From Alistipes sp. (lineage in GTDB: Bacteria > Bacteroidota > Bacteroidia > Bacteroidales > Rikenellaceae), in contig JAFQHI010000012.1 in NCBI GenBank assembly GCA_017398045.1, forward strand, positions 1 through 53,964: a stretch of DNA of 53,964 bases, given 5' to 3'. Shown here in pieces: positions 5,672 through 46,943 of the stretch. Position numbers and translations under genes: made by a program. Position 1 is the stretch's first letter. Every line of letters begins with the position of its first letter. The notes under the pieces are model-generated. The model was not told where the DNA came from, ran no database searches, and saw only the letters and a program-made list of their open reading frames with translations.

Positions 5672-7735
5672 ATGATGCGAAAACTTCTTTTTGTACTCCT
5701 GGCAACCACGCTATGGTGCGGTTGTTCGGACGAATACGACGATTCGGCCCTCAAAAACGACCTGAACGATTTGGCAGCACGTATCGAGGCCGCGCAGACT
5801 GCACTGACGGCCCTCAACAACGACCTGAAGAGCTACCAAAGCATCATCGCTGCGCTCGACGGAGCCAACTACATCACCGAGGTTATCGAGGCACAAGGCA
5901 CGATAACCATTACCTACAACGACCACTCGACCATCACCCTCACCTCCGGCGCAAAGGGTGAAACGGGTGACGCAGGTGCAACGGGACCGGTTGGCGAAGG
6001 GGGCAAAATCGTCATGCCGCTCTTCCGCATCGACACCACTACGGGCTATTGGCAAATTTCCTACGACGGCACCACCTGGCAGCAGCTGCTCGACACGGAG
6101 GGCAACCCCGTGCAGGGGCTTGGCGAAAAGGGTGCAACGGGCGAAGCGGGTGCAGGCGGAGCGGTCGGTACGGCCCCCGTTTTGGGCATCAGCGACGAGG
6201 GATACTGGACCATCGACCTCGGTGACGGCAAGGGCGCACAGCCCATCAAGGATATAAACGGCCACCTCGTGGTTGCCGACCCCTCGAAGGTGCCGACCGG
6301 TTATTTCCGTTCGGCCGCAGTGAGCGATACGGGCGAGGAGCTGTGCATCACGCTCCTCTCGGGTGAGGAGTTGTGCATCCCGATTGCAGGTTCGCTCGTG
6401 TTTGAGTTGAGCATCGAAAAGAGCGAAACCTTCTCGGCCGGTGAGACACGCAGCTTCGCCCTCAAGCAGCAGGGCGTGGCCGAGATTGCCATCGAGCGTC
6501 CCGAAGGTTGGGTTGTCAAGGTTGCCGAGACGGCTGTCACCATCACCGCCCCAAAACAGGCAAGCCGTGGCGAAATCACCCTCTACGCAACCTCCAAAGG
6601 GGCATTATTGAAGCTCGTGACGATAGCTGTCGAGTCGAAAGCGGCCACGGGCAATGCCGACATCAACACCCTCTACGGCTACGGCCAGGAGACCACGGGT
6701 GGCGCAGGGGCTACGGCCGCCAACACCCACCATTTCAATTCGGGAACGGCCTTCCGCGACTGGCTGAAATTGCGCGAGAAGAACAAATCGACCACCCCGG
6801 CCATCGTATGGCTCAGCGGCACCTTCACCGCTGCGGATGGTCGCGATTCGGACAGCCCCTGGTTCGATATCAAGCGCACGAGCAACATCTCCATCTATGG
6901 CACCGATTCGTTCAAGATGCAGAACGTAGGTTTCTTCCTCAACGAGGCACAAAACATCATCATCCGCAACATCTACATCGTCATGCCGAAGGCCGACAAC
7001 GGTGCAGACGGCATCTCGATGCAGGAGAGCAAGAACGTCTGGGTGGACCACTGCACCTTCGAGTCGGTGAATCAGGAGAAGGATTACGAGGATGGTTCGT
7101 GCGATATCACGCACGCCACCAGCGGGGTAACGGTTTCGTGGTGCCACTACATCAAGACCCAGAAATCGAGCTTGGTGGGTCACTCGAATTCTGCTTCGGA
7201 AGATGCGGCCATCACCGCCACCTTCCACCACAACTTCTTCGATGGTTCGTCGTCGCGTCATCCGCGCGTAAGATTCGGCAAGGTACACGTCTATAACAAC
7301 TTCTACAACGGCTGTACGACCTATGGCGTAGGTAGTGCCTATGGTGCCATGGTGCTGGTCGAGCATAACGCCTTCGACAATGTCCACCTGCCGACCGATA
7401 TCTGCACCTTCCCCGCCAAGCAGAGCGGCTCGTCGTGGGTTTCGAACCTCACGGGCAGCGTAGCCGGTTATCTCTATGCCGAGAACAACGTGTTCACGAA
7501 CAAGCCTTCGAACGCCTCCGACCCCTACCCCTTCACAAACGTGGAGTGGAAGGCCTACAACGGAGAGAAGCTCTCCACGCCGCTCGTGTATGCCGACTTT
7601 AAGCCCGCCTACACCTACCCCTTCGACCCCGCCTCGGAGGTGGCCGAAATTGTCCGCGCAGGGGCCGGTGTCGGTAAGATGGAGGGCTACGCCTCGGCTC
7701 CCTATGCCGCCGACAACGGAACAGGACAGCAGTGA
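5672..7735 (+). CDS. Pectate lyase (PL1 family) lipoprotein with DUF4988-like N-terminus
   Basis: The 687-residue protein should cleave pectin or polygalacturonate by beta-elimination at the cell surface. It has a lipoprotein signal (WCGCS), a coiled-coil stretch at about 24-60, and two Gly-rich collagen-like segments (GAKGETGDAGATG near 97 and GEKGATGEAGAGG near 152), an arrangement typical of Bacteroidetes DUF4988-type N-termini. Residues about 330-660 form a right-handed beta-helix with PL1 motifs: WVDHCTF, a following DGSCDITHATSGVTVSW, and RHPRVRFGKVHVYNNFY (about 529-545) with the catalytic Arg. No SusC/SusD pair is nearby, so it stands outside a standard utilisation locus. ATG at 5675 is an alternative start. 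Confidence 0.88.
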   Translation: MMRKLLFVLLATTLWCGCSDEYDDSALKNDLNDLAARIEAAQTALTALNNDLKSYQSIIAALDGANYITEVIEAQGTITITYNDHSTITLTSGAKGETGDAGATGPVGEGGKIVMPLFRIDTTTGYWQISYDGTTWQQLLDTEGNPVQGLGEKGATGEAGAGGAVGTAPVLGISDEGYWTIDLGDGKGAQPIKDINGHLVVADPSKVPTGYFRSAAVSDTGEELCITLLSGEELCIPIAGSLVFELSIEKSETFSAGETRSFALKQQGVAEIAIERPEGWVVKVAETAVTITAPKQASRGEITLYATSKGALLKLVTIAVESKAATGNADINTLYGYGQETTGGAGATAANTHHFNSGTAFRDWLKLREKNKSTTPAIVWLSGTFTAADGRDSDSPWFDIKRTSNISIYGTDSFKMQNVGFFLNEAQNIIIRNIYIVMPKADNGADGISMQESKNVWVDHCTFESVNQEKDYEDGSCDITHATSGVTVSWCHYIKTQKSSLVGHSNSASEDAAITATFHHNFFDGSSSRHPRVRFGKVHVYNNFYNGCTTYGVGSAYGAMVLVEHNAFDNVHLPTDICTFPAKQSGSSWVSNLTGSVAGYLYAENNVFTNKPSNASDPYPFTNVEWKAYNGEKLSTPLVYADFKPAYTYPFDPASEVAEIVRAGAGVGKMEGYASAPYAADNGTGQQ

Positions 7736-36892: not shown

Positions 36893-36924
36893 AACTACGC
36901 AGTATTGCAATTTATATATTTATA

Positions 36925-36932
36925 CAAAGGTA
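36925..36932 (-). promoter_or_regulatory. -7 box TACCTTTG for ybbR-like-coaE-folP-lolD-trmN6 operon
   Basis: This exact TAnnTTTG match on the minus strand lies 32 nt before the ATG. TATAC/GTATA surround it as a small palindrome. Confidence 0.65.
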
Positions 36933-37007
36933 TAAATTTATTCGGAGAAACAGGAAAAAGGAGATTAAAAAAGAAACATTACCCCCCCCTAACTTACTAT
37001 TCAATAA

Positions 37008-37037
37008 AAAAGCCCTGCGAAATTTCGCAGGGCTTTT
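37008..37037 (-). terminator. Perfect 30-bp palindromic terminator after secDF
   Basis: Bases 37008-37022 are the reverse complement of 37023-37037, with GCCCTGCG in the stem and A/T ends. It lies 20 bp beyond the secDF stop on the minus strand. Confidence 0.88.
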
Positions 37038-37057
37038 CGTATCGAGCGTGTGAAAAA

Positions 37058-40000
37058 TTACTTCTTCAGCTCCTTCTTCTTGTCGGCACGAGCCATCAGG
37101 TCGTAAGCAATCGGCGTAGCCACGAAAATCGTAGCGGCCGTACCGATGCAGACACCGAGAATCAACGCGAAGATGAAACCGCGAATCGTCTCACCACCGA
37201 AGAGGAAGATGGCGATAAGCGTTACGAGCGTCGTAGCCGAGGTGTTAATCGTACGCGACAAGGTCGAGTTGATGGCCTTGTTCACATTCTCCATCATCGC
37301 ACGCTTCGGGTAGAGACCCAGGAACTCGCGGATACGGTCGAAGACTACCACCGTATCGTTGATGGCGTAACCGATGATGGTCAGGATGGCGGCGATGAAG
37401 GCCTGGTTTACCTCCAGGTTGAAGGGCAGCAGACCGTAGAACATCGAGAACACACCGATAATCATGAAGGCATTCACGGCCAGGGCCAGCGTAGCACCCG
37501 AAGCCCACTGCCAACGCTTGAATCGGAGCGTAATGTAGAGACCGATAGCGATGAGCGAGAAGAGTACCGAGTAGATAGCATTCCAGGTCGTATCCTTGGC
37601 AATCGAAGGACCAATCTTGTCGGCATTCAGAATACCGTTCTCGTCGGTCTGCGTATCACGGAACTGCTCGAAGCTGATGTCATAGGTGTAAAGACCCTTC
37701 ACGGCATTGTAGAGAATCTCCTCTACCTCGGCCGTAGCGTCGTCCGACGTATCGTCGAAACGATACTGCGTAACGATACGCATCTGGTTCTCACCACCAT
37801 ACTGCTTCACCTCATACGATACGTTCGAGGCGTCGGCATCCTCAATCTTTGCAAACTCCGCATCGAGGTTCTGACGTACCTCCTCGGCCGAAACAGCCTG
37901 GTCGAAACGTACCACGTAGGCACGACCGCCCGTAAACTCGGCACCGAGGTTCAGACCGCGTACAGCAAACGAGATGCACGACAGACCCAGCACAACAGCC
38001 ACCACGATGTAGGCCGTCTTACGCTTCGAGAGGAAGTCAATCTTCGTGTTGTTGAGGAAGTTCTCCGACCAGGGACGCGAGAACGAAATCTCACCGAATT
38101 TGGCCACAGCCCACTCAATCAGCAGACGCGTAATAAATACAGCGGTAAATACCGAGGTGATGATACCAATCACGAGGGTCGTAGCGAAGCCCTGTACCGG
38201 ACCCGTACCGAAGATGAAGAGGACGATACCGGTGATAATCGTGGTCAGCTGACCGTCGATAATGGCCGAGTAAGCCTTCGAGAAGCCATCCTTGATAGCG
38301 AGCGAAAGGCCCTTACCGCCACGCAGCTCCTCCTTGATACGCTCGTAGATAATCACGTTGGCATCCACAGCCATACCCATCGTCAGCACGATACCGGCAA
38401 TACCCGGCAGGGTCAGCACGGCACCGAACGAAACCAGCACACCCATCAAGAGGAATACGTTGGTCAAGAGGGCGATATCCGACATCCAACCGGCCGTCTT
38501 GTAGAACAGACCCATGTAGAGCAGGACGAGGATAAAGGCAATCACGAACGACAACAGACCGGCGTTAATCGACTCCTGACCCAGCGACGGACCTACCACG
38601 GTGTCCTGGATAATCTTGGCGGGAGCGGGAACCTTACCCGACGAAAGTACATTGGCGAGGTCCTGTGCCTCCTGAATCGTGAAGTTACCCGTAATCGACG
38701 AGGTACCACCCTCAATCTTGTTAATTACGTTGGGAGCCGAATATACATAACCGTCGAGTACGATGGCGATGCACTTGTTTACATTCTCACCCGTCAGACG
38801 AGCCCACTCCTGTGCGCCCTCGGCGTTCATGGCCATCGAAACCTCGGCCGTAGCACCCTGCTGGGCATACTGCTCACGCGCCTCGGTAATCACCGAACCA
38901 TCCAGCGGAGCCTTGCCGTCGGCACGAGCCACGCGGATAGCGAAGAGCTGGTAGCGACCATCCATCATGTCGTCACCCTTCACAGCCCACTTGAAGTCGA
39001 TGTCGGCGGGGAACAGCTCACGTACCTGCGGCATGGCGAGGTAGGCATCCACCTGGGCCATATCGGCCTTGTACGAAGCACCGATAGCGGCACCACCGGC
39101 AAACGAGGGGTCAAGCACAGCGAACAAGGGGTTCTGCTCACGCGAGTAGCGGCCCGTCTCAACGGCATCGGCCTCCTCGGCAGGCTGCCCACCAATCTCG
39201 GCAATCAGACCCTCGGCCTCTTTACCCTCCTCGGCCTCAACCTCCTCCGTAGCGGGAGCCACCTCGGCAACCTGTGCCTTCAGGAGCTGGTCGGCCTGCA
39301 CCAGGGCGGGCAGTACCTCGTTTGCGCTGTAGGTGGTCCAGAACTCGAGCGATGCGGTACCCTGCAACAGGTCACGTACACGCTGCGGCTCCTTTACACC
39401 CGGCAACTCAACCAAAATACGGTGCGAGTTGGGAAGACGCATGATGTTGGGCTGCGTAACACCGAAGTGGTCGATACGGCTGCGCAACACGTTGAACGAA
39501 GCGGCGATAGCAGCCTCGGTCTCACGCTGAAGCACCTTCTGTACATCCTCGTTCGAGCTTTCGAGCATGATATCCTTGCGGTCGGGGCTTACAAAGAGCG
39601 GAGCAAGCGAACCACCGTTGGTCTGACGCTCGTAAATCTCCACGAAGTCGGCGATGTAATCCTTCGACGTACCGCTCTTGAGGTTGGCGTTGGCCTCCTC
39701 GATGGCGGCGATGAAGGCGGGGTCCTGTGCGCTGTCACCGGCCAAAGCCTTTACGACATCCTCCACCTGCACCTCCAGCATGACGTTCATACCGCCCTTG
39801 AGGTCCAGACCCAGGTTCAACTCCTTCTCCTTGCACTCCTTGTAGGTGAAGCTCTTGAAGCCCATGTTGAACACCTGAAGGTTCTGAATCGAATCCAGAT
39901 AGTGCTGCTCCGCCTCGGCCTGCTGCTCGAGGGGGAACGTAGCGGCATACTCCACCGCCTTCTTCTCTACGCTACGTGTCTTGAACGTAAACGAGAGCTG

Positions 40001-40060
40001 GTAAACACATGCCAGTGCCAGCAGCACGGCGATGAGTTTGATAAAACCTTTGCTTTGCAT
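37058..40060 (-). CDS. secDF: Fused protein translocase subunit SecDF
   Basis: The 1000-residue inner-membrane protein uses the proton gradient to help pull proteins through SecYEG. The SecD half has GLDLKGGMNVMLEV near 85 and a long periplasmic P1 domain with an acidic Glu/Ala-rich insert near 265-290. A six-helix block follows. The SecF half has GAEFTGGRAYVVRF near 690 and NDTVVVFDRIRE near 895. The fusion of the two is usual in this phylum. The start at 40060 (MQSKGFIK) is the first plausible signal-anchor start; the frame runs open upstream. It is transcribed alone, with a promoter box at 40125-40132. Confidence 0.95.
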   Translation of the reverse strand: MQSKGFIKLIAVLLALACVYQLSFTFKTRSVEKKAVEYAATFPLEQQAEAEQHYLDSIQNLQVFNMGFKSFTYKECKEKELNLGLDLKGGMNVMLEVQVEDVVKALAGDSAQDPAFIAAIEEANANLKSGTSKDYIADFVEIYERQTNGGSLAPLFVSPDRKDIMLESSNEDVQKVLQRETEAAIAASFNVLRSRIDHFGVTQPNIMRLPNSHRILVELPGVKEPQRVRDLLQGTASLEFWTTYSANEVLPALVQADQLLKAQVAEVAPATEEVEAEEGKEAEGLIAEIGGQPAEEADAVETGRYSREQNPLFAVLDPSFAGGAAIGASYKADMAQVDAYLAMPQVRELFPADIDFKWAVKGDDMMDGRYQLFAIRVARADGKAPLDGSVITEAREQYAQQGATAEVSMAMNAEGAQEWARLTGENVNKCIAIVLDGYVYSAPNVINKIEGGTSSITGNFTIQEAQDLANVLSSGKVPAPAKIIQDTVVGPSLGQESINAGLLSFVIAFILVLLYMGLFYKTAGWMSDIALLTNVFLLMGVLVSFGAVLTLPGIAGIVLTMGMAVDANVIIYERIKEELRGGKGLSLAIKDGFSKAYSAIIDGQLTTIITGIVLFIFGTGPVQGFATTLVIGIITSVFTAVFITRLLIEWAVAKFGEISFSRPWSENFLNNTKIDFLSKRKTAYIVVAVVLGLSCISFAVRGLNLGAEFTGGRAYVVRFDQAVSAEEVRQNLDAEFAKIEDADASNVSYEVKQYGGENQMRIVTQYRFDDTSDDATAEVEEILYNAVKGLYTYDISFEQFRDTQTDENGILNADKIGPSIAKDTTWNAIYSVLFSLIAIGLYITLRFKRWQWASGATLALAVNAFMIIGVFSMFYGLLPFNLEVNQAFIAAILTIIGYAINDTVVVFDRIREFLGLYPKRAMMENVNKAINSTLSRTINTSATTLVTLIAIFLFGGETIRGFIFALILGVCIGTAATIFVATPIAYDLMARADKKKELKK

Positions 40061-40124
40061 TGTGAATTTAATTTGTTTATGTTGTTTTTTATTTCTGATT
40101 TGACATACAAACCATAATAGCACG

Positions 40125-40132
40125 CAAAGATA
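40125..40132 (-). promoter_or_regulatory. -7 box TATCTTTG for secDF
   Basis: This exact TAnnTTTG match on the minus strand gives a leader of about 60 nt before the ATG at 40060. Confidence 0.6.
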
Positions 40133-40184
40133 GAAAAATAAAGTGAAACGAAAAAACAACCACCCAAAAAATGCGTTTTTTTCA

Positions 40185-40192
40185 TACCTTTG
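40185..40192 (+). promoter_or_regulatory. -7 box TACCTTTG for EamA gene
   Basis: This exact TAnnTTTG match is 19 nt before the ATG at 40212, divergent from the secDF promoter. Confidence 0.6.
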
Positions 40193-40211
40193 TCGCAAGA
40201 AATTCGCACTT

Positions 40212-41075
40212 ATGCTACGATACCACCTATATGCCCTCTTTGCAGTGACGGTTTGGGGTGCCACGTTTGTCTCGACAAAGGTCTTAATCGGCTACGGACT
40301 TTCGCCGGCCGAAATCTTTTTCGTGCGCTTTCTGATGGCCTATATCTGCATCCTACCCTTCACCGCACGTCATCTGTGGGCCGATAATTGGCGGGATGAG
40401 CTGGCGATGGTCGGCATCGGTCTGACGGGCGGTTCGCTCTACTTCCTGACCGAAAATATGGCCGTGGCCTACGCTCCGGCCTCGAATGTCTCGCTCATCG
40501 TCTGCTCGGCGCCCCTCTGGACGGCACTGCTGCTTGCCGCCCTCTACCGCAACGAGCGGATGAATCGTCGGCAGACCATCGGTTCGGCCTTGGCCTTCTT
40601 GGGAATGGTGTTGGTGGTACTGAACGGGCGGTTTGTGTTGCAACTCGCGCCCAAGGGTGATTTATTGGCATTTGCCGCCGCCCTACTATGGATGCTCTAC
40701 TCGCTCATCATCAAACAGATAGGACACCGTTACGATGCGCTCTTCATCACGCGCAAAACCTTCTTCTACGGATTGCTGACCATTCTGCCGTGGTTCCTCT
40801 ACGAACCCTTCGACGTTTCGTGGGCTGCACTTTCGCACCCCATCGTGGCGGGCAATCTGCTCTTTTTGGGGGTCGTGGCCTCGATGCTCTGCTATTTTGT
40901 GTGGGCCGTAGCGATGCGGGAATTGGGTGCCGTCCGCGCCACCAACTACATCTACCTCAACCCGTTAGTCACTATCATCACGGCTGCTGTCTTTATCTCG
41001 GAGCGTATCACTCCGATTGCGCTGTTGGGTGGCGCGTTGATTCTCTACGGAATGTGGAAAGCGGAGAGAAATTAA
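40212..41075 (+). CDS. EamA/DMT family transporter
   Basis: The 287-residue inner-membrane protein has ten predicted helices in two EamA repeats. Typical motifs are WGATFVSTKVLI at about 17-28, APLWTALLLAALY near 100 and ITAAVFISERITPIALLGGALILYG, in two parts, at the end. Family members export metabolites or amino acids; the substrate is unknown here. The start at 40212 is placed by the promoter and by the hydrophobic first helix. A heptamer array begins at its stop codon. Confidence 0.85.
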   Translation: MLRYHLYALFAVTVWGATFVSTKVLIGYGLSPAEIFFVRFLMAYICILPFTARHLWADNWRDELAMVGIGLTGGSLYFLTENMAVAYAPASNVSLIVCSAPLWTALLLAALYRNERMNRRQTIGSALAFLGMVLVVLNGRFVLQLAPKGDLLAFAAALLWMLYSLIIKQIGHRYDALFITRKTFFYGLLTILPWFLYEPFDVSWAALSHPIVAGNLLFLGVVASMLCYFVWAVAMRELGAVRATNYIYLNPLVTIITAAVFISERITPIALLGGALILYGMWKAERN

Positions 41076-43405: not shown

Positions 43406-44272
43406 TCACATATTAAGCGACTGTCCGTTTGCGTCGTAGTAGAGGTAAGTATCGCGGTCGTTCACCTCCGTTTCGAGGCGATAGCAGGTACCTTCCGGTG
43501 TCTCCACCAGGTCGGCATCCTCAATTCCGTAGCGGGCATACTCCGAGGCGGCAAAGGCTTGGCGCACAGCCTGCGGAAGCTCCTCGATGCGCAGTGCGGT
43601 CTCGGTGCGCACCCAATTGCCGGAGCTGTCGAAGAAGAGTTCGCGTTTAATCTGCCCGTCAAGGATGTCGATTTCGGTCAAACCGCGCTCACCGTCAATC
43701 TCCAAGATGCGGGCATTCGGATAACGCTGCTCGATAAAGCCCTGCACGGCCGACACGAGCGCATCGGGGATATAATCGGCATAATCATAACCGGCATCGG
43801 CATCCACCACCGCCTTCACAAGGACGCCATCGGGCGAGAAGTAGAGGTCGATTTCCTGCTCACGGCCATCCTCGCCAAGGCCCTCCACCTCAATCACATA
43901 GACCGTCTCCATACCCTCGCGCTCGAGCATATCCACATCCTCAACCTCCCACGTGCCATACGCACTACCACGGAAGGCATCCTGCACCGACTGGGGAAGA
44001 GCCGCATAGGGGATGTCGTACTCGGTCATATACCAAACACCTGCAATGTCGAACCAAGCCGCATTATCGGCCGTCGTCGGAGAACCCGGAATGGCAAAAT
44101 CGGCCACATAGTATCCCCCGCGCGTACTCCAGGCTACACCCACTGCATCGGGATAACGCGCCACCAGGGCGTCCTGTACCTCTTTGGGAGTCATGTTCAC
44201 ACCGTTGTCATCTTTCTCGCAGGCCGTGAAGAACATCATCGCCACAACCGGCAACCACATCATTTTTTTCAT
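43406..44272 (-). CDS. PepSY-like lipoprotein with four repeats
   Basis: The 288-residue lipoprotein (lipobox FFTAC, Cys18) contains four related segments of about 65 residues. Helices such as TPKEVQDALVARYPDA, LPQSVQDAFRGSAYG, VSAVQGFIEQRYPNA and LPQAVRQAFAASEYA each precede three beta strands. This is the PepSY-like (beta-lactamase-inhibitor-like) fold common in Bacteroidetes. The function is unknown; sensing or binding peptides or proteases in the periplasm is an inference. It follows the two-repeat PepSY-like gene by 47 bp, so the pair is likely one unit under the operator at 44817-44843. Confidence 0.78.
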   Translation of the reverse strand: MKKMMWLPVVAMMFFTACEKDDNGVNMTPKEVQDALVARYPDAVGVAWSTRGGYYVADFAIPGSPTTADNAAWFDIAGVWYMTEYDIPYAALPQSVQDAFRGSAYGTWEVEDVDMLEREGMETVYVIEVEGLGEDGREQEIDLYFSPDGVLVKAVVDADAGYDYADYIPDALVSAVQGFIEQRYPNARILEIDGERGLTEIDILDGQIKRELFFDSSGNWVRTETALRIEELPQAVRQAFAASEYARYGIEDADLVETPEGTCYRLETEVNDRDTYLYYDANGQSLNM

Positions 44273-44319: not shown

Positions 44320-44754
44320 TTAATCATCCCATCCTACCATGCGACCTTCGGCGTCAAATCGCAGTTCCAAGCCGCCATTTAATTGTACCTCGTAGCGACG
44401 ATTCTCACGGCTGATTTCGGTCACCGCATGATTGGGGTGGTGTTGGGCGAGGTAGTGACGAATCGGCTCCGGAACAATAGCCATCGGCACCGAGGCATAG
44501 CGGCAGGAGACCTCCTCCCACTCCCCCATCCGGGTAAATTCAATCTTCTCACCGCCCATGAGCAGCACCTCGTAATGCACCTCAAAAAGGTCGCGGTCTT
44601 TTTTCGCCAACGAGATATTCCGCTCGGCAAAGTGGGTTGCCAAAAAGGTTTTGGCTCTTTCGGGTAATTCATTGTAAGCAATCGCGCGGTCGTTATCGGC
44701 CTGTGCCGTCCAACTCATCGCGAGCATCATCATTATCCATACAACCTTTTTCAT
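44320..44754 (-). CDS. Exported PepSY-like protein with two repeats
   Basis: The 144-residue protein has a signal peptide (MKKVVWIMMMLAMSWTAQA) and two PepSY-like repeats: ELPERAKTFLATHFAERNI with its strands, then VPEPIRHYLAQHHPNHAV ending FDAEGRMVGW. It lacks a lipobox, so it should be soluble in the periplasm. The start at 44754 is fixed by the signal peptide. Its promoter shares an operator with the response regulator gene, so it is a strong candidate target of that two-component system, possibly feeding information back to the kinase. Confidence 0.78.
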   Translation of the reverse strand: MKKVVWIMMMLAMSWTAQADNDRAIAYNELPERAKTFLATHFAERNISLAKKDRDLFEVHYEVLLMGGEKIEFTRMGEWEEVSCRYASVPMAIVPEPIRHYLAQHHPNHAVTEISRENRRYEVQLNGGLELRFDAEGRMVGWDD

Positions 44755-44800: not shown

Positions 44801-44843
44801 CAAAGGTCGGGGGTGATTTTGTAGCGAATTTGTAATTTTCGGC
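44801..44843 (-). promoter_or_regulatory. Promoter with predicted response-regulator operator (PepSY gene)
   Basis: Read on the minus strand, ATTACAAATT and GCTACAAAA form a direct repeat (TTACAA and CTACAA, 11 bp apart) in 44817-44840. A -7-like GACCTTTG follows at 44801-44808. The same element with the same spacing stands before the response regulator gene. The poor -7 box (GA instead of TA) suggests dependence on an activator. Confidence 0.7.
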
Positions 44844-44871
44844 AAAAGGTGATTTTTTCAGAAAAAAACAC

Positions 44872-44910
44872 AAAAAAAAGAGGGTGTCGGACTTTCGGTC
44901 AAACACCCTC
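44872..44910 (-). terminator. Terminator after histidine kinase gene
   Basis: GAGGGTGT (44880-44887) pairs with ACACCCTC (44903-44910), and the minus-strand transcript then enters a run of eight T. It starts 5 bp past the kinase stop. Confidence 0.8.
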
Positions 44911-44914
44911 AACG

Positions 44915-46201
44915 CTATGCAACCCCACGGGACGGCCATATCACCCGAAAACGGTGACGACCCGCTTTATAATCGTAGAGAACTTGCAAATGGTAGCTCT
45001 CGGCCACTGCCTTGACAAGCGAAAGCCCCAAACCGGTCGAGCCTTCCCGTTTCGACCGCTGATAGAATCTGTCAAAGATACGGTCGCCATCGAGCGGCTC
45101 TGCGCCATCGTTTTCGATGGTGAGCGTTCGATGTTTCAGCTCGACTTTCACCACCGCACCATCTTCGCTGTGCAGGTAGGCATTGCGCAACAGATTGGTC
45201 ACCAGAATCGAGGCCAGCGTTTCGTTCATCTCCACCTCAAACCGTTCGGGCAACAGCCGTTCGCAACGAATGGCACGCGCTTCGTAGATGTCGGCCAGCA
45301 TCGCCCCCTCGCGCTCAATCAAGGCCACAAGGTCAATCGTCGAACTCTCCGGAAATTGCTGATTGTCAATCTTGGTCAGCAACAACAGATTGCGATTCAG
45401 GCGCACCAGATGACGCTGCGTGTCGAGCATACGGAACACCTCGGCCATCTGCTCCTCATCCAGGTGCAACGAATTGACCATCCACTCCATGCGGTTGCCC
45501 AACACGGCCAGCGGGGTTTGCAACTCGTGCGAGGCATTGCCGATAAACTGCTTTTGGCGGTCATACAGCTCTTCGGCACGATTGGCCATCGCCTCGGCCG
45601 CACGATTCAGGCGTCGGAATTCGGTAATGTCGGTGTTGTTCGGCACCGGCTCGGCACGATGGCCGGGCAGATAGCGGTCAATCCACGCCAAGAGACTGTA
45701 GAGCGGTTGCATCGAACGACGGAACACCCACATCGTCAGGCCGATGCCCACCAACAAAAGCAGGAAGCAGAGAAAGACAATCCACCCCAGAATCGTTTCG
45801 CGCAGGTCGGCACGTTCAAACGTCGGTGTCGCCACCTGCAACTCAAACCATTGCCCCTGCTGGTCACAAAACAGACAGGTCAGCACACGGGCCGGCTCGG
45901 TCTCCCCCTTTTCGGGGATATAGACCTCGGCATCGTGGAAACTGACACGCGAAGAGGTGGCCGCATAGAGGCTGTCCACGGGCTGCAACGTATAGCTGTT
46001 GTTCGAACCATTATTTAACGTGGGCAACTCGCGACCGGCCAAATAGCGCATGATGATTAGCTCCGAGTAATCCTCCAAGGCATCATCGGCCTCGTCGTTA
46101 ATCTCATCAATCATGGCAAAATAGAAGAGTGCGGCCCACAAGGCCAACACGGGGAGCATCACTGCCGAGAGGTGCAAAAAAAGGCGCGTAGTGAGTTTCA
46201 T
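44915..46201 (-). CDS. Sensor histidine kinase
   Basis: The 428-residue membrane kinase has transmembrane helices at about 8-30 and 135-157 with a periplasmic sensor of about 100 residues between, a linker, then HisKA with ASHELQTPLAVLG (His near 219) and HATPase_c motifs TNLLRNAYLH, FDRFYQRSK and GLGLSLVKAVAE. The C-terminus continues to the last residues VIWPSRGVA. It is 11 bp after the response regulator and co-transcribed with it. The signal is unknown. The PepSY-like pair just downstream could act as periplasmic partners, an inference from position and the shared operator. Confidence 0.9.
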   Translation of the reverse strand: MKLTTRLFLHLSAVMLPVLALWAALFYFAMIDEINDEADDALEDYSELIIMRYLAGRELPTLNNGSNNSYTLQPVDSLYAATSSRVSFHDAEVYIPEKGETEPARVLTCLFCDQQGQWFELQVATPTFERADLRETILGWIVFLCFLLLLVGIGLTMWVFRRSMQPLYSLLAWIDRYLPGHRAEPVPNNTDITEFRRLNRAAEAMANRAEELYDRQKQFIGNASHELQTPLAVLGNRMEWMVNSLHLDEEQMAEVFRMLDTQRHLVRLNRNLLLLTKIDNQQFPESSTIDLVALIEREGAMLADIYEARAIRCERLLPERFEVEMNETLASILVTNLLRNAYLHSEDGAVVKVELKHRTLTIENDGAEPLDGDRIFDRFYQRSKREGSTGLGLSLVKAVAESYHLQVLYDYKAGRHRFRVIWPSRGVA

Positions 46202-46212
46202 AGGCTGCCGAA

Positions 46213-46896
46213 TTAGTCGTTTTCAACCATCGTAAGGCGATAACCGAACCCATACACCGCCTTGATTTCGATATCGGCTCCCGCTTCGATAAGCTTGCGA
46301 CGCAGATTCTTAATCTGCCCATAGACAAAATGGAACGTATCGAGCTGGTCCACGTGGTCGCCCCACACGGCCTCGGCCAAGAGGGTCTTATCGACCACAT
46401 GATTGGGTCGTTGCATGAAATAGGAGAGGATATTGAACTCCTTCTTCAACAAATTCAGCGGTTCGCCCGCCACGACAACAACCTGCTTTTCGGGGTCGAG
46501 ATAGACATTTCCCATGCGAAAGCCCCGCTCGCCGCCCCGACTGCGACGTGCCACACTGCGAATACGGGCCGAAAGCTCCATCAGGTGAAAGGGTTTCGGC
46601 AAATAATCATCGGCTCCGAGTTCCAACCCTTCGACCTTATCCTCAATCGCATCGCGTGCCGAGATGATAATCACATTCTCGCGTCGTCCTTGTCGTTTCA
46701 ACTCCTCCAAAAGGCGCAAACCGTTGCCATCGGGCAACATGATATCGAGCAGGATGCAGTCATAGCTGTAGCCTGCCAACTTCTCATCCGCCTCGCGATA
46801 GGTAGCGGCACGCTCCACCACATGATTCTCGCGTTGCAATTCGCGGCACATCAACTCGCGCAGCGAAGGTTCATCCTCAACAATCAAAATTTTCAT
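46213..46896 (-). CDS. OmpR-family response regulator
   Basis: The 227-residue DNA-binding regulator has a receiver domain (LIVEDEP start, phospho-acceptor Asp in DCILLDIMLPDGNG near residue 51, Lys in LPKPFHL near 101) and a winged-helix domain at about 130-222 (YGQIKNLRRKLIEAG, with AVYGFGYRL at the end). Its promoter holds the same direct-repeat operator as the PepSY-like gene. The -7 box TAGGTTTG is 4 nt before ATG, so the mRNA should be leaderless. Confidence 0.93.
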   Translation of the reverse strand: MKILIVEDEPSLRELMCRELQRENHVVERAATYREADEKLAGYSYDCILLDIMLPDGNGLRLLEELKRQGRRENVIIISARDAIEDKVEGLELGADDYLPKPFHLMELSARIRSVARRSRGGERGFRMGNVYLDPEKQVVVVAGEPLNLLKKEFNILSYFMQRPNHVVDKTLLAEAVWGDHVDQLDTFHFVYGQIKNLRRKLIEAGADIEIKAVYGFGYRLTMVEND

Positions 46897-46900
46897 GGTG

Positions 46901-46943
46901 CAAACCTACGGAATCATTTTGTAGCGAAGTTGTAATTTGCGGC
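46901..46943 (-). promoter_or_regulatory. Promoter with autoregulatory operator (response regulator gene)
   Basis: TAGGTTTG (46901-46908) is an exact -7 box, 4 nt before ATG. On the minus strand TTACAACTTCG and CTACAAAA (46917-46938) give the same direct repeat as at 44817-44840, and the distance to the -7 box is also the same. The element starts at the stop codon of gtrA, read from the other side. Confidence 0.7.

Follow-up and report, generated by a model that had tools for sequence, protein, structure and literature searches.

The stretch analysed here, hereafter the window, comprises 53,964 nucleotides of an Alistipes sp. genome (GCA_017398045.1, contig JAFQHI010000012.1). On its minus strand lie an OmpR-type response regulator gene, a sensor histidine kinase gene and two genes for PepSY_like proteins (Table 1), and the same short direct repeat stands before the regulator gene and before the first PepSY_like gene. 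The regulator combines a receiver with a winged-helix DNA-binding domain (PF00072 and PF00486, both above cut-off), as members of the OmpR/PhoB family do, and the kinase carries HisKA and HATPase_c domains. The predicted terminator behind the kinase gene (fold −18.8 kcal/mol, z −4.48) implies that transcription of the PepSY_like genes requires a separate promoter. Solved relatives of the smaller PepSY_like protein are 3due, 3db7, 4qoa, 3elg, 4poi and 4dsd; at least six solved PF11396 chains are named merely as putative or uncharacterized periplasmic proteins. The kinase query gave seven matches in the own genome, hence other two-component systems are present there.

Table 1. Genes and predicted control elements of the module in the window.
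Feature	Position	Strand	Basis
Predicted operator 1, TTACAACTTCGCTACAA, half-sites TTACA and CTACA, 11-bp period, 5′ of the response regulator	46919–46935	−	sequence, genome pattern search, model R1
Predicted operator 2, TTACAAATTCGCTACAA, 5′ of the PepSY genes	44819–44835	−	sequence, genome pattern search, model R1
Predicted −7 box of the regulator promoter, TAGGTTTG	46901–46908	−	sequence; TAnnTTTG consensus from the available text of PMC7366714
Predicted −7 box of the PepSY promoter, GACCTTTG	44801–44808	−	sequence; fixed spacing
OmpR/PmrA-type response regulator, 227 aa, residue 193 = G	46213–46896	−	Response_reg and Trans_reg_C; closest solved chain BasR
Sensor histidine kinase, 428 aa, HaeS-type, NCBIfam NF052314 (PorY family label)	44915–46201	−	domain and NCBIfam scans
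Predicted intrinsic terminator between kinase and PepSY gene, hairpin 44880–44910, then eight T	44872–44910	−	sequence, fold
PepSY_like (PF11396) protein, 144 aa, signal-peptide-like N-terminus (by eye)	44320–44754	−	Pfam; solved relatives
Second PepSY_like protein of 288 aa with two PF11396 stretches; N-terminus resembling that of a lipoprotein and ending in C18 (by eye)	43406–44272	−	Pfam

On the plus strand, GTAGCGAA-n-TTGTAATTT occupies 44821–44838 and 46921–46938, in each case with a CAAA 20 bp ahead of it (44801–44804 and 46901–46904). The letters of the window and these positions bear out what an earlier note had read from the sequence alone: that the same operator stands at the same spacing before the regulator and the PepSY-like gene, that the two copies differ at two positions (the n, at 44829 and 46929, and one base beyond, at 44839 and 46939), and that they form a TTACAA/CTACAA direct repeat with an 11-bp period. 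Read along the minus strand the repeat is TTACAA(A/C)TTCGCTACAA, and the minus-strand element TTACAAnTTCGCTACAA precedes both genes at an equal distance from the TTTG of the −7 box. The box before the regulator matches TAnnTTTG, and the one before the PepSY gene reads GACCTTTG. The regulator box ends 4 nt ahead of the ATG (window 46896–46908), so the regulator mRNA may be leaderless; a distance of 4 nt between TTTG and ATG is shared by the window and four others (L034, L035, L085 and L092) of 24 loci measured. In Bacteroides thetaiotaomicron about 3.7% of 5′ untranslated regions are shorter than 10 nt (PMC7366714; papers given by PMC number are cited throughout for the part of their text that was available).

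When the two 150-nt upstream stretches were compared, their best 20-nt ungapped identity was 19/20, against a maximum of 15 in 200 dinucleotide shuffles. The pattern TTACAANTTCGCTACAA had 12 matches with up to three mismatches in the 2,358,920 bases of the own genome, the two operators being exact and the other ten carrying three mismatches; the reversed pattern had 15. A pattern search of the whole assembly found no match to TTACAAnTTCGCTACAA with fewer than three mismatches besides the two operators. Related kinases from the same genus and beyond were gathered with their neighbourhoods, and 27 operator sites, both window operators among them, were built into a model, R1. Its scan of the own genome returned only the two operators at E ≤ 1e-3, with the next match at E 0.32.

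In 15 of 16 loci the element lies ahead of the PepSY gene with a score of 20–23 of 24, mostly as TTTCA-N6-TTTCA; the exception, L049, has a TTCCC/TTCCA form in a scan blind to the third base. By this comparison the repeat of the window is a drifted form of TTTCA-N6-TTTCA. Eighty named Bacteroidales loci were collected by kinase profile and scanned with R1, and the profile used to identify PepSY frames was derived from a PepSY protein of the window itself (in one alignment, each of the 20 members matches PF11396 as well). At E ≤ 1e-3 every one of the 88 sites precedes a PepSY gene (63) or a response regulator gene (25); without L084, which duplicates a training genome, 86 sites remain, 62 and 24 respectively. 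At E ≤ 0.01 there were 103 sites, 64 before PepSY genes, 38 before regulators and one elsewhere, and 62 of the 69 loci with a PepSY frame had a PepSY site. Stretches up to 350 nt 5′ of PepSY or regulator frames make up 4.2% of the scanned sequence, and as the classifier also took frames opening up to 400 nt before a site, its catch area is about twice that figure; the site in L093 precedes a PepSY gene whose open frame starts far upstream and was counted as PepSY. Operator sites also precede PepSY genes lying away from the kinase, on the opposite strand or on separate contigs. The earlier note had held that its proposal would fail if unrelated genes often carried the motif or orthologues lacked it upstream; neither is true for the PepSY genes, while the regulator site proved rarer (see below).

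The distance between repeat and −7 box is nearly invariant. Measured from the repeat alone, with the box not required and training loci included, TTTG lies 9 nt past the 22-nt repeat block at 87 of 91 PepSY sites and 24 of 34 regulator sites, and at 10 nt in five more of the latter. Such rigidity would be needed for contact with the polymerase. An 11-bp period separates the half-sites of the 27 training sites and of the majority of 102 aligned matches, so that the predicted operator has the tandem layout, with a period of about one turn, of OmpR/PhoB-type sites.

To determine how the element is distributed, 392 genomes of the order were scanned with R1, the kinase being called by profile at E ≤ 1e-50 in 132 of them. 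Sites at E ≤ 1e-4 occurred in 20 of the 132 genomes with the kinase, two of which (G000 and G044) had supplied training sites, and in none of the 260 without it; at E ≤ 1e-3 the counts were 32 and 9. These figures indicate that the sensitivity of R1 is low and its specificity high. The 25 sites at E ≤ 1e-4, three of them training sites, divide into 21 before PepSY genes, two before response regulators, one before a porin-like gene and one before hemA. The next 25, up to E 1e-3, comprise seven before PepSY genes, three before porin-like genes, one before hemA, three immediately 3′ of the kinase, where no PepSY frame was evident, and 11 unexplained, which for all 50 gives 28 PepSY, two regulator, three 3′ of the kinase, four porin-like, two hemA and 11 unexplained. 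Among 21 chosen genomes, the 15 with a close kinase, all donors of training sites, had best sites at E ≤ 1.8e-6; the best E was 0.014 in five of the same genus without a close kinase and 0.067 in G051, whose kinase is distant. R1 was also applied to 295 further genomes of the phylum, two or more of which belong to the same order, and found no site at E ≤ 1e-4 and nine at E ≤ 1e-3, two of these before PepSY_like frames.

Residue 193 of the regulator, which we assign to the recognition helix because of its position within the winged-helix domain (by comparison with PhoB and PmrA), varies together with the third base of the half-site: where half-sites read TTACA, TTCCA or similar, A at this residue mostly gives way to G, S, T, Y, N or Q. 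A candidate site was found in 174 loci, six more giving no regulator or candidate; the 134 scoring at least 15 of 22 were counted, the 40 below having been dropped before the count. The third-base-blind consensus still favours TTTCA-like sites elsewhere in the motif and demands TTTG or TTTT at its end. For the half-site nearer the −7 box, 87 loci combine A with T, one A with another base, 13 another residue with T and 33 another residue with another base. Residue 193 was the best of 227 columns (Fisher 1.2e-19; runner-up 3.8e-9) in a plain test that treats relatives as independent and counts near-copies twice, for example two B. fragilis loci, L119 and L123. We regard the covariation as suggestive. 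Two genomes hold an additional copy of the module (L262 in G136 and L288 in G289), in which the helix residues read QQVANLKRK and the repeat that the two share is another one, TTTTA-N6-ATAGA.

Some sites lie before genes of other kinds. Operator-like sites precede hemA (glutamyl-tRNA reductase) in two families, at L226 1425–1462 (G095; E 9.4e-5) and L214 1258–1292 (G427; E 7.9e-4); both genes match GlutR_N, and the sites would fit a link to heme. In four genomes of one genus the operator precedes porin-like genes that share their N-terminal sequence (L202 in G139, L204 in G224, L205 in G346 and L211 in G291), and the two that were scanned, L204 and L211, match Porin_O_P. Further sites stand before an OMP_b-brl gene, a DUF2490 gene and two CotH-kinase genes (L081, L200 and L199 in G001, L082 in G014), and at L224 (G228) the gene preceded by a weak operator-like site (E 0.0096), downstream of a distant kinase, is TonB-dependent-receptor-like and not a PepSY gene. 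Elsewhere in the window, a 1070-codon open frame at 36905–40117 (plus strand) runs antisense to a 1068-codon frame at 37058–40264 (minus strand) and is probably a by-product of codon usage.

The comparisons demonstrate a conserved predicted operator, its position, its spacing and its company with the kinase, and we infer from them that the regulator encoded beside it is the protein that binds. The explanation we consider probable as a whole is that the repeat would be the regulator's own operator at both promoters, through which it helps the polymerase, with possible feedback from the PepSY proteins. Two winged-helix domains would bind head to tail on TTTCA-N6-TTTCA (in the window TTACA-N6-CTACA), approximately where a −33 element would be and at a fixed distance from the −7 box. 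The two promoters, one serving regulator and kinase and the other the PepSY_like genes, are very probably both controlled by this regulator; bound there it would most likely aid RNA polymerase, activation being likelier than repression. The PepSY proteins are predicted to reach the periplasm, where they may act back on the sensory part of the kinase, and by analogy it is plausible that they damp it as DbfQ does DbfS. Candidate signals, by analogy with HaeSR of Porphyromonas gingivalis and DbfQRS of Vibrio, would be heme or iron, or envelope damage. A shared switch held at a fixed distance in related gut bacteria suggests a self-adjusting envelope-sensing circuit. The circuit of regulator and PepSY proteins proposed in the earlier note is thus strengthened by an operator shared among many Bacteroidales, the fixed −7 spacing, the lack of sites at E ≤ 1e-4 in genomes of the order without the kinase and the variation with residue 193.

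Several results weigh against this explanation. Its support is comparative, and both binding and expression in this organism are deduced from sequence. Among the first 20 loci, 14 score at least 17 of 24 before the regulator and six fall below, and at E ≤ 0.01 a regulator site occurs in 38 of 79 loci with a regulator, as against the 62 of 69 for PepSY. In the scan of the order, 112 of the 132 kinase genomes have no R1 site at E ≤ 1e-4, nine genomes without the kinase have one at E ≤ 1e-3, and 11 of the 50 sites at that threshold are unexplained. No site at E ≤ 0.01 was found in 14 of 48 genomes with a close kinase; variants in these site-less genomes score 14–20 of 24, and regulator-upstream stretches score 12–18 in the same scan. 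R1 found no site before the further PepSY_like gene of the own genome, on another contig (C16:35581–35823, minus strand; L193), and none at E ≤ 0.05 in G436, presumed to be P. gingivalis. Correction for kinship on the kinase tree left, for the half-site nearer the −7 box, eight independent contrasts, on average 4.5 with the residue, 0 opposed and 3.5 showing no difference (median p 0.06, range 0.03–0.5); the other half-site gave 3.5, 0.2 and 4.3 (median p 0.25). A smaller set of 95 loci yielded five contrasts, 2.4 concordant, 0 opposite and 2.6 without difference, and the TTACA clade of the window by itself amounts to one or two changes.

Alternative explanations were weighed against the same data. 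The operator could belong to another OmpR-type regulator, the gene at this locus being merely a target: the own genome has other two-component systems, and direct-repeat operators are common to OmpR-type regulators. We hold this to be very unlikely, as the sites track this kinase, are present ahead of this regulator at E ≤ 1e-3 in 25 of 79 loci and vary with its residue 193. A resemblance due to chance or to a small mobile repeat, with which the mere two copies in the own genome would agree, is refuted by conservation before related genes, and an identity of 19/20 against at most 15 in the shuffles leaves it virtually no probability.

The regulator might instead repress both promoters, covering the −33 region, blocking polymerase and departing on a signal. 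The operator does lie approximately where a −33 element would be; the rigid spacing to the −7 box is nevertheless what polymerase contact would need, and the nearest solved chain, BasR/PmrA, is an activator. HaeR itself speaks for both sides, as a reported repressor at some promoters (PMC3764172), which also counts against the explanation we favour, and through the positive effect reported on haeR itself. Taken together, we judge repression unlikely. Considerably harder to dismiss, if on balance doubtful, is that the PepSY proteins are outputs (binders of metal or heme, or inhibitors of periplasmic enzymes) that make no contact with the kinase and are merely co-regulated by the operator. Sites before hemA, porin-like and other outer membrane genes in some genomes point that way; in the other direction, DbfQ binds its kinase in Vibrio (PMC12714742), and for PG0717 and PG0718 of P. 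gingivalis an auxiliary role in regulating the kinase pair has been proposed (PMC3772042).

If the regulator acts through its own operator as proposed, the site offers a testable binding site for a regulator family that has chromatin immunoprecipitation (ChIP) and footprint data but no motif in the literature found, and it places PF11396 proteins, so far putative or uncharacterized periplasmic proteins, in a regulatory circuit. It also singles out one residue and one base per half-site; exchanging them would reveal how regulators of the OmpR type are retuned. More tentatively, and at slightly less than an even chance, the circuit may extend across the Bacteroidales: the core output of the regulator family would be its own kinase's periplasmic PF11396 modulators, PepSY genes, including those distant from the kinase, would share the operator geometry, and residue 193 and the third base would have changed together as the circuit was retuned several times.

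Among known systems, PmrA/BasR and QseB belong to the best NCBIfam matches of the regulator, which scores far under the cut-offs (RppA 171 against 250 bits, PmrA 167 against 330). PmrA/BasR and QseB bind direct-repeat boxes with the half-site CTTAA, whereas the family of the window has TTTCA or TTACA. The kinase passes NF052314, 'PorY family', with 425 bits (cut-off 350), a label that points to PorY/PorX of type IX secretion system regulation. The HaeS-type kinase of L313 passes it too (446 bits), so the label cannot separate PorY from HaeS type, and it may mislead annotation. PorX is without an OmpR-type DNA-binding domain, and PorXY was rejected as the system, judged by the adjacent gene alone, because the regulator encoded there has Trans_reg_C.

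The module also resembles DbfQRS of Vibrio cholerae (PMC12714742), in which the gene of a small periplasmic PepSY protein likewise lies beside kinase and regulator. The features reported for that system are self-activation of the operon and a PepSY protein that binds the sensory domain of the kinase and favours its phosphatase activity. DbfQ comes from the PepSY family proper (surveyed there by IPR025711), in contrast to PF11396 in the window, and dbfQ is predicted to share a transcript with dbfRS, whereas the PepSY genes of the window lie behind a terminator. In its available text no word starting with Bacteroid occurs.

The closest counterpart is HaeS/HaeR–PG0717/PG0718 of P. gingivalis, in which regulator, kinase and PepSY_like (DUF2874) genes stand in one row, an order described as conserved in Bacteroidales (PMC3772042). 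The module is therefore already described in kind (PMC3764172, PMC3772042), contrary to the earlier note, which had not recognised it as described, and action of a PepSY protein on a kinase is known for DbfQRS (PMC12714742). The operator, its geometry and the covariation are new as far as the literature search shows: for a HaeSR-type module no printed operator was met in the literature found, supplements and most subscription papers being outside its scope. The words consensus and direct repeat are absent from the available text of PMC8757827; in that of PMC3764172 consensus is absent and motif appears once, for another thing. HaeSR is reported to respond to hemin, and HaeR reportedly binds its own promoter and acts as repressor as well as activator (PMC3764172). 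Two PepSY-like genes of B. thetaiotaomicron, BT_0922 and BT_0923, are listed as iron-dependent in a table of PMC10434189 and would be candidate members of such a module.

The published PG0720 primer matched two of 38 genomes of one family, namely G436 and the genome of L313. In G436 the regulator is intact, whereas a full kinase is missing and a kinase/PepSY remnant is left, in agreement with the description of P. gingivalis ATCC 33277 (PMC3764172). HaeR has 57 reported ChIP targets, heme uptake genes included (available text), against two sites in the genome of the window, and as G436 has no R1 site, the operator does not explain those targets. R1 was run on 32 of the 38 genomes and gave 11 sites at E ≤ 0.05, eight of them before PepSY frames. 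The published primers of the haeR probe for the electrophoretic mobility shift assay, reportedly shifted by HaeR, enclose L312 6530–6750; within this promoter, at 6566–6601, TTTCAG and then ATTCAG recur with an 11-bp period one base further from TTTG (by eye, 11 of 22). L313 holds a regulator and a kinase 62% and 40% identical to those of the window, together with PepSY_like genes encoding one and four domains where the window has one and two stretches, and before the first of these genes stands TTTCAGTTTCTTTTCAG, that is, TTTCA-N6-TTTCA, with a score of 18 of 22.

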